A stretch of 64,000 nucleotides of DNA from Pochonia chlamydosporia 170 (Eukaryota; Ascomycota; Sordariomycetes; Hypocreales; Clavicipitaceae), in NCBI RefSeq assembly GCF_001653235.2, contig NC_035791.1, positions 3,224,001 to 3,288,000 on the forward strand. Reading direction: 5' to 3'. A program made the position numbers and the translations under genes. Under the pieces are notes generated by a model, which made no database searches, had not been told where the DNA came from, and saw only the letters and a list, made by a program, of their open reading frames with translations. Of the stretch, positions 49,746 to 51,697 are shown piece after piece; position 1 is the first letter of the stretch; every line of letters starts with the position of its first letter.

Positions 49746-51697
49746 ATGGGCTCGCAATTCGAACCTGAATCCACCCTTTCCGTTGGTCCTTTCCGTCCCA
49801 CCAGAAGCGGCGACTGGGAACCTTTCAAAGATGCCATCACCAAACTATACTGGGATGACGAGATGACCTTGTCCAACGTGATGCAAACTATGGAAACCAC
49901 GTATGGTTTCTACGCAACGTGCGAGACCCTACCAAGCGCACCCACGTTATTTGTGTAAATGCTCACACCTACATAGGAAAAAGCAGTACAGGACTCGCCT
50001 TCAAGCTTGGGGGCTCGACAAGAATCTGAGTTCGGCGGACATGTCTGTTATTTCACAAATCCAGCAAACTCGGCGCGAAGTTGAAGACAAAGATACGGAG
50101 TTCACATTCCGAGGTAAAATAGTTCCGCAGCGAAAAATAGACCGGTGGCGGAGGAGACAGAAGGCATGTCATGACGACCACGCAACAGGTTCGTCTATCG
50201 TCTCGGCGTACATGTAGTCTCGAATGATGCTAATTGTGCTTGCAGCTTCTACACCAGCTGGCATTGGCTATGGGACACCTAGATTCCCGGAGTCACAGGC
50301 TTCAACACCAGATCTAACACATGATGACCAAGTAATGCCCAAAGGAGAGTTTACAGCTCGTGGAGATGCTCACATGCTTGATGACGTGCCATCTGCGTTT
50401 GCAGACCTAGGCGATTTTCTACCGAGTTCAGACGCTTCAAACACCCACACAAGGCTAAACCATCACCTCTTTCCAATGTATGCGGGAGAACCGCAATATT
50501 CCAATCACGGTATGTATTGCGTATGTGCACGGCGATGAAATAAGGTACTGTACTCTGATAAACTCAGGGCCAGCAACATACCACCAACCTTTGAATTTCC
50601 CAAATGTCCGCCTCGATCAAGTCGAAACAGAAAATGCACCTACAATGCAAATGTATCCCCGACCAATTCAGCTGTCACCGGCAGTTGAAACCTCACCTAG
50701 AGCCGTAAAGCGGAAGGCTCTGCTAATAGGCATCAACTACATTGGACAAAGAGGTGAACTGAAAGGCTGCATTTCAGATGTGAATAACATGTCCATGTTT
50801 CTCATTGAACACTTTGGCTTTACCCGTGACAACATGGTTATTCTCTCCGATGACCGAAAGCGACCGACTGGTCAACCGACTCGACAAAACATAGTGAAAG
50901 CCATGCAGTGGCTTGTCAAGGATGCTCGCCCAAACGATTCCCTCTTTTTCCATTTTTCAGGTACGTAAACCTGTCAAAGATGACGTCTTTTGTGCTAATA
51001 GTGGTATTTTAGGTCACAGTGGCCGGAGAGTCTGTTTAAACGAAAGTGGCCTTGAAGGCTTCGACGAGGTCATTTATCCAGTGGACTTTGATAACGTTGG
51101 CGACATTACAGACAGTGAAATGCACAATATTATGATCAAGTCTCTCCAGCCTGGGGTTCGATTAACAGCAATCATCGACTCGAAACACGAATTCCCTGCC
51201 CTTGACTTGCCATATAGTTACGCAGTTCAAGGTATTCTCAAGGAACCAAATTTACTTGCGGAATCAGGGACAGATTTATTACAAGGTCTTGCCGCCCAGT
51301 ACTCGGGATGCAATCCAGAATCTGTAGCATCGAGTCTCCTGGGGTTCTTCAAGAGTGTTACAGCACCTTCGAGTATGGCCCTGAAACGCGATCAGAATGT
51401 GGGCGAAGTCATCATGTTTAGAGTTGCATCTTGTCATAATCACATGTGAGTACATTGGCTGTTTTGCCAGCAAAATATGGAGCTGTATGGTATCTGAATG
51501 CAGTGTTCTGGAGCTGACATGCTGTTGGCAGAAACGACGATGGCGACATGGTCCGGGGCCACGAGTCAATTTCTCACGCCTTCATTGCCACGCTACGGAG
51601 CCATCCTGAGCTTCTTGTTTCTCAACTGATGAATGTAATGAACAATGAAATGCTTGGGGGCTTAACTCTGGCATGTTCACGCCCTCTTGGCAAGTGA
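49746..51697 (+). CDS. Clr5-domain / metacaspase-like fusion lacking the catalytic cysteine
   Basis: Six exons: 49746-49918, 49977-50188, 50246-50509, 50568-50960, 51013-51445 and 51532-51697, all in phase, giving 546 residues. Residues about 23-74 are a Clr5 domain (DWEPFKDAITKLYWDDEMTL through KKQYRTRLQAWGLDKN). A Pro/Ser/Asp-rich linker follows. A caspase-like p20/p10 region runs from about 264 to the end: KRKALLIGINYIGQRGELKG, VILSDDRKRP, SLFFHFSGHSG with the histidine at 349, FDEVIYPVD, and LQPGVRLTAIIDS. The catalytic cysteine of the usual DSCHSGSALDLPY is a lysine (K405, DSKHEFPALDLPY). The acidic stretch after the histidine is also replaced. The p10-like tail is retained (ISHAFIATLRSHPELLVSQL). 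It is probably a pseudoenzyme. The fusion rests on intron phase and needs transcript support; neighbours give no functional hint. Confidence 0.75.

Follow-up and report, generated by a model that had tools for sequence, protein, structure and literature searches.

In the 64,000-nucleotide stretch of Pochonia chlamydosporia 170 DNA analysed here (the window), the gene at 49746-51697 (+) was read in an earlier note as a Clr5 domain joined to a metacaspase whose catalytic cysteine has become a lysine. This reading raises three questions: is this one gene, can its product still cut, and what might it be for if it cannot?

The gene has six exons (Table 1) separated by introns that are all GT-AG, and these join in phase to give a protein of 546 amino acids followed by a stop codon. 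Splice borders, frame and Pfam domains agree with the six exons and the single Clr5-metacaspase protein proposed earlier. The acceptor of exon 6 was picked since its frame yields a metacaspase-like end; a shorter intron 5, ending near 51504, was rejected by eye, its frame stopping early and containing nothing metacaspase-like. The intron positions are those of two kinds of gene. Intron 1 interrupts codon 58 and falls within the Pfam Clr5 match (residues 22-73, or 49809-50022), so that the Clr5 profile is split at position 39; elsewhere in the genome, four further Clr5 loci are split at 38-40. Intron 4, directly before GHSG, lies at an intron site shared by this genome's three canonical metacaspases, and intron 5 at their DDQTS intron site (both read by eye). 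The gene looks like a Clr5 gene and a metacaspase gene that were joined, each with its own introns.

Table 1. Exons of the Clr5-metacaspase gene and its catalytic positions, numbered within the window.
Feature	Position	Strand	Content
Exon 1	49746-49918	+	Start codon, initial two thirds of Clr5 domain
Exon 2	49977-50188	+	Remainder of Clr5 domain and conserved extension beyond (TEF ... G ... VP ... KIDRW)
Exon 3	50246-50509	+	Linker, low conservation
Exon 4	50568-50960	+	Linker end and first half of p20 (residue 264 = 50708 onward)
Exon 5	51013-51445	+	His loop, remaining p20, start of p10-like part
H349, catalytic-histidine position	51015-51017	+	Kept, as GHSG
K405, catalytic-cysteine position	51183-51185	+	Codon AAA
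Exon 6	51532-51697	+	p10-like end, eroded, and stop codon

The model was built from genomic sequence only, which leaves room for a wrongly merged pair of neighbouring genes or for a sequencing error in the cysteine codon; both are very improbable. The spliced model has no stop between the Clr5 and metacaspase parts, and the same domain order in six other public proteins, four of which (P0003, P0004, P0005 and P0007) align over at least 95% of the Pochonia protein, speaks against two separate genes, as do the intron positions. The lysine codon differs from both TGC and TGT at all three bases, which rules out a single base error as the source of K405, and the nearby motif residues 407, 408 and 409 are altered as well. 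On sequence evidence, the gene model holds up.

Both domains of the spliced protein were found by Pfam well above their cut-offs. Clr5 (PF14420) matched residues 22-73 with an E-value of 5.8e-21 and 74.8 bits (cut-off 22.3), covering profile positions 3-54 of 54, and Peptidase_C14 (PF00656) matched residues 264-406 with an E-value of 2.2e-20 and 73.8 bits (cut-off 21.4). The scan, taken to E-values of 1, returned nothing besides these two and no NACHT or NB-ARC domain. Against solved structures, residues 258-535 aligned with yeast metacaspase 1 (E 3.3e-67), and this alignment placed K405 opposite the catalytic cysteine, which is alanine in the mutant chain. The p20 homology of a type I metacaspase (C14B) is thus present and the His-Cys dyad is absent: the histidine at 349, in GHSG, and the lysine at 405 were both verified in the spliced protein, as the earlier note had them. 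A pseudoprotease is a protease homologue that has lost an essential catalytic residue with its frame intact and has retained a non-catalytic function; the Pochonia fusion shows the first of these features and may have the second.

The S1-pocket residues of Trypanosoma brucei MCA2 are reported as Cys92, Asp95, Ser156 and Asp211, and its calcium aspartates as 173, 189, 190 and 220, the latter reportedly conserved in Yca1 (PMC4357240). We transferred these positions to the Pochonia protein by spacing and alignment. All four S1 residues are kept (C284, D287, S347 and D403), as are three of the four type I calcium ligands (D365, D381 and D412), the fourth position, 382, being serine. The acidic residues that follow H349 had been described as substituted, with a consequence for calcium control. 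The substitution is real (5 of 14 conserved positions of 348-363 are kept), but the statement on calcium has to be amended: the four type I ligands lie outside this stretch and three of them are kept. The remark was not without substance, since the acidic loop corresponds to the cation-binding loop described for the yeast and Candida glabrata metacaspases (PMC9622860, available text); its terminal aspartate, D365, is kept.

Type I metacaspases number three in the genome (44.2 Mb in 49 contigs); all carry GHGG and DSCHS and so keep the dyad that the fusion has lost. One of them shares 86% identity over 299 residues with a protein of Metarhizium album, and clusters with two Metarhizium proteins with support 100/98, in keeping with a genome of the Clavicipitaceae. 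A genome search with the fusion protein gave 12 matches, namely its own six exons and six pieces of the three paralogues, and no second Clr5-metacaspase was found by this search. Locus L003 (C5:2070619-2074449) holds a 667-residue frame with a divergent caspase-like domain, with GHG and DCC, unlike the three type I metacaspases. A transposase-like frame at L016 112-1749 (-) has an integrase core and a region matching Clr5 at 24.6 bits (cut-off 22.3), and similar frames, some broken or shortened, occur at four more genome sites (L017, L018, L019 and L020). The next gene downstream of the fusion in the window, 52711-54246 (+), combines a MOSC domain, YiiM-like helices, an NAD-binding domain and a 2Fe-2S ferredoxin in one frame.

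Six other public proteins with Clr5 and C14 were present among the best 120 of 2075 matches, and a profile search returned the same six among its best 120 of 2296. The relatives sample consisted of the best 120 rows of each search, 158 distinct proteins altogether, and both domains were verified by Pfam in all six fusions. They come from Madurella mycetomatis (P0002), Conoideocrella luteorostrata (P0003), a Cercophora sp. (P0004) and metagenomes (P0005-P0007); an NCBIfam scan of four of these six homologues gave no family over its cut-off. P0003, named 'Ca(2+)-dependent cysteine protease' in the database, is the best full-length match (481 aa, 39% identity over 96%) and belongs to a fungus of the Clavicipitaceae (PMC12352038, available text). 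It shares with the Pochonia fusion the domain order, the loss of the cysteine and the kept S1 residues, but its cysteine is replaced by threonine and not lysine, its histidine motif is GHHG and not GHSG, and all four calcium ligands are kept, against three of four in Pochonia. P0002 (database name 'Metacaspase-1B') differs from the Pochonia fusion in keeping the dyad, as GHGD and DSCHS, and P0004 differs in keeping the cysteine, in a model without the GHG stretch. The public model of P0004 lacks 11 residues, including the catalytic GHG, in a gap that starts at the intron site of the ordinary genes, so the annotated splicing may be wrong there.

The dyad is intact in four of the seven fusions; position 405 is lysine in Pochonia and threonine in P0003, and P0004 has no histidine stretch. 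Among ordinary single-domain metacaspases, a column alignment showed that H and C were kept in 148 of 148, a count that leaves out P0001, P0121, P0122 and P0123 (repeated metacaspase domains; two not DSCHS). P0121 and P0122, from Rhizoctonia solani, carry three GHGG motifs each, and have DCSHS or DCSHA for DSCHS with serine replacing the cysteine. The S1 residues were kept in all seven fusions and all 148 ordinary metacaspases, with C405 lost in Pochonia and P0003. Counting certain cases only, cysteine loss occurred in 2/7 fusions versus 0/148 ordinary proteins (Fisher P 0.002, a guide only, the sequences being related and chosen by similarity). The change to lysine was not seen again among the six other fusions: cysteine loss recurs there once, in P0003, but as threonine. 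The earlier note had regarded homologues in close species with an intact catalytic pair as evidence against its reading; the fusions that keep the pair are from more distant relatives (Madurella and metagenome proteins), and the fusion from the same family, P0003, is dead too. Since four fusions keep the His-Cys dyad, joining the two domains does not in itself serve to make a dead enzyme, and inactivity belongs to some of the family.

The extent of change beyond the cysteine was measured on 195 positions that are at least 97% conserved across 73 ordinary domains (70 sampled and the 3 paralogues). The Pochonia fusion kept 110 of these, the lowest count, and lost 85; P0003 kept 135, P0004 149, P0002 172, P0005 175, P0007 180 and P0006, which is truncated at its end, 140. 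Losses in the Pochonia protein were heavy in the His loop (5/14 kept), the Cys loop (3/7), residues 436-480 (5/13) and the p10 end (13/44), and lighter in the remaining regions (44/61, 24/30 and 16/22), the p20 core being better preserved than the two loops and the p10 end. The pattern in P0003 was alike, with 5/14 kept in the His loop, 3/7 in the Cys loop and 19/44 in the p10 end. The p10-like end had been called retained, and this is right for its length but not for its conservation, since those 13 are all that survive of the 44 near-invariant positions between 481 and 546. The description of an intact but probably inactive protein must likewise be divided: the frame is intact and the cysteine lost, but the p10 end is largely eroded.

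With its histidine and S1 pocket retained, the protein might be thought to be a hydrolase still, acting through a different residue. We consider this exceedingly unlikely, because the nucleophile site holds neither cysteine nor serine (S404 merely precedes K405 and is present in ordinary enzymes as well) and erosion has reached both catalytic loops as well as the p10 end. The residues of the S1 pocket and the calcium sites appear to have fared better than the rest. Seven of these eight were kept in Pochonia versus 110/195 overall (hypergeometric P 0.07), and eight of eight in P0003 versus 135/195 (P 0.05), and the five remaining fusions gave no such signal (P 0.29 to 0.88). The excess in the Pochonia fusion and P0003 is suggestive, not proof, of selective retention of these residues.

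Two lines of evidence bear on how the fusions arose. The Clr5 regions were compared by local score, the Clr5 proteins from outside the fusions being the six loci of the Pochonia genome. Scores with the Pochonia fusion were 311 for P0003, 279 for P0002 and 270 for P0004, compared with 155 to 204 for P0005-P0007 and 62 to 149 for the six own-genome loci. These scores give two sets, one of Pochonia, P0003, P0002 and P0004 and the other of P0005, P0006 and P0007, and scores across the sets were sometimes no better than those against the ordinary locus L011: P0002 scored 130 with P0005 and 156 with L011, and P0003 scored 154 and 171, respectively. A Clr5 tree of 13 rows was poorly resolved, with one starred branch of ten. 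Residues 12-150 searched alone against 97 candidates at an E-value of 0.001 matched none of them, P0003 included, a result that is uninformative on absence.

The metacaspase tree was built from every second of the 148 ordinary proteins, 70 after length and motif rules, with the 3 paralogues and the 7 fusions. The domains of P0002 and P0004 nested among ordinary proteins of what we take, from organism names, to be Sordariales (99/90), and those of P0005-P0007 among a set presumed on the same basis to be Leotiomycetes (90/95). Contrary to the Clr5 grouping, P0003 joined P0007 (98/67) within the Leotiomycetes set of the best tree, its branch measuring 1.66 and lying apart from P0002 and P0004, and the Pochonia fusion stood alone at the midpoint root. 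Its end branch was 4.44 changes per column, versus a median of 0.02 for all rows; the end branches of the seven fusions ranged from 0.21 to 4.44. The placement of the Pochonia fusion and P0003 is unsure because of these long branches. The test rejected a single clade uniting the seven metacaspase domains (AU p 0.0009), but a clade of Pochonia, P0003, P0002 and P0004 was not rejected (p 0.35), nor was one of Pochonia and P0003 (p 0.28). Position 408, which is glycine in ordinary proteins, departs in all four members of the larger clade, and position 282 does likewise. The rejection of one clade and the two Clr5 sets together point to two or more separate fusions as the probable history, or else to a single old one with gene conversion from ordinary copies afterwards.

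Repeated fusion is also what an integrated bait would produce. Here a metacaspase copy would be repeatedly joined to a Clr5 sensor, and an attacker of metacaspases, be it a virus, a rival microbe or a selfish element, would trip a response; catalysis would be dispensable and change would be fast. The same bait principle has been proposed for NLR proteins of Sordariales (PMC12258605, available text), and the long branches and the cysteine loss fit it, as does the rejected single clade. The Pochonia protein, however, has no nucleotide-binding switch domain by Pfam, four fusions keep the dyad, and the appearance of repeated fusion could come from gene conversion or from long-branch error. To our knowledge no attacker of fungal metacaspases has been described, and we hold the bait to be improbable.

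A stronger competitor is that the metacaspase part is a fused duplicate in decay, changing by drift under weak constraint, with perhaps only the Clr5 part still of use. The loss of 85 of 195 conserved positions, with the p10 end among the worst, and the end branch of 4.44 are as expected of a domain that is losing constraint; the raised branch lengths of all seven fusions and the loss of the cysteine in two of them, through different substitutions, point the same way. Codon usage is in keeping with decay. The GC content at third codon positions was 0.467, the lowest of 13 frames compared (the others being twelve long open frames in the window, which are not proven genes), and was near the intron GC of 0.447, which gives no sign of strong codon selection. 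Dinucleotide indices were within the range of the compared frames and so gave no sign of repeat-induced mutation.

The frame itself is harder to reconcile with decay, being intact across five introns with good borders. Compared with the C4 paralogue over 172 codons, the first, second and third codon positions differed by 0.326, 0.215 and 0.599, a pattern that marks protein-level constraint for much of the divergence but puts no date on any loss of it. When the whole coding sequence was evolved neutrally to 65% identity, the estimated Pochonia share of the divergence from P0003, 0/1000 simulations were stop-free under each of two settings. At 80% identity 6 and 10 of 1000 frames stayed open, and at 90% 58 and 68 of 1000, so a recent release from constraint is possible; for the 172 codons of the p20 region only, 36 to 49 of 1000 stayed open. 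The retained S1 residues and most calcium residues also speak against decay. On this balance we regard decay as less likely than not, although it is the main rival to the reading we prefer and a serious one to the putative regulator or decoy role suggested earlier.

That reading, which we hold tentatively and a little short of calling it probable, is that the Pochonia fusion is a non-cleaving pseudoprotease, in which the Clr5 part would set the location and the metacaspase part would bind partners. It takes the protein to be expressed and folded and to act in regulation, as we infer. Fission yeast Clr5 has a role in chromatin silencing according to the available text of PMC7608984. In an AF2 model of P0003, the N-terminal module was confident to about residue 120, whereas the metacaspase part was mostly below a pLDDT of 70, which counts against this reading. 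By sequence the Clr5 part matched no solved structure (best E 1.2), and in the fold comparison metacaspases and caspases took up the matches, so that it says little on the Clr5 part. The Clr5 module is helical in the homologue model, and this, with the Clr5-like sequence in the transposase-like frame, makes nucleic-acid or chromatin binding probable. The Clr5 module would then place the protein on chromatin or DNA. The metacaspase fold there would not cleave, because its nucleophile is lysine, and would instead bind substrates or the three dyad-intact metacaspases of the genome. The partners would offer basic residues, the side chains for which the kept S1 pocket is suited, and binding might perhaps depend on calcium; K405, which adjoins the acidic pocket residue D403, might by speculation fill the pocket.

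Yeast Mca1/Yca1 (4F6O) and the three canonical metacaspases of the genome share the p20 region, the S1 residues, the histidine and three of the four calcium ligands with the Pochonia fusion. Canonical fungal type I metacaspases differ in having no Clr5 domain, an intact dyad and a proline-rich N-terminal region. Dead caspase relatives as such are already known from other groups. The metacaspase MCA4 of the protist T. brucei is reportedly a pseudopeptidase that still has a role. Bacterial pseudo-orthocaspases are caspase homologues without the catalytic dyad (PMC6426788, PMC7889975); unlike the Pochonia fusion they have both dyad positions changed, to Tyr and Ser, and the available text of these papers mentions no Clr5.

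Among open-licence PMC papers, we found none that used 'Clr5' together with 'metacaspase' and none that named both Pfam accessions (PF14420 and PF00656). Among the open-licence PMC matches listed for inactive or pseudo-metacaspases, the titles and abstract openings yielded no fungal case, and of two surveys of fungal NLR proteins, the available text of PMC12258605 mentions Clr5 once and that of PMC4986451 does not. The pairing of the two domains does seem to be undescribed, as had been supposed, but it is not unique, with six other public proteins carrying it. The Clr5-metacaspase fusions are seemingly a small, scattered and undescribed fungal family.

Fungal metacaspases are usually discussed as active proteases, and database labels of the kind 'Ca(2+)-dependent cysteine protease' end up on proteins that are probably unable to cut, which calls for caution. 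A family in which dyad-intact and dead members occur side by side would lend itself to asking which of the roles of metacaspases depend on cleavage at all. A broader picture, which we think unlikely, is that filamentous fungi repeatedly fused a metacaspase to Clr5, and that the version in Clavicipitaceae would be a calcium-responsive, substrate-binding but non-cutting brake or bait on chromatin. The Clr5-metacaspase family would tie cell-death proteins to chromatin.
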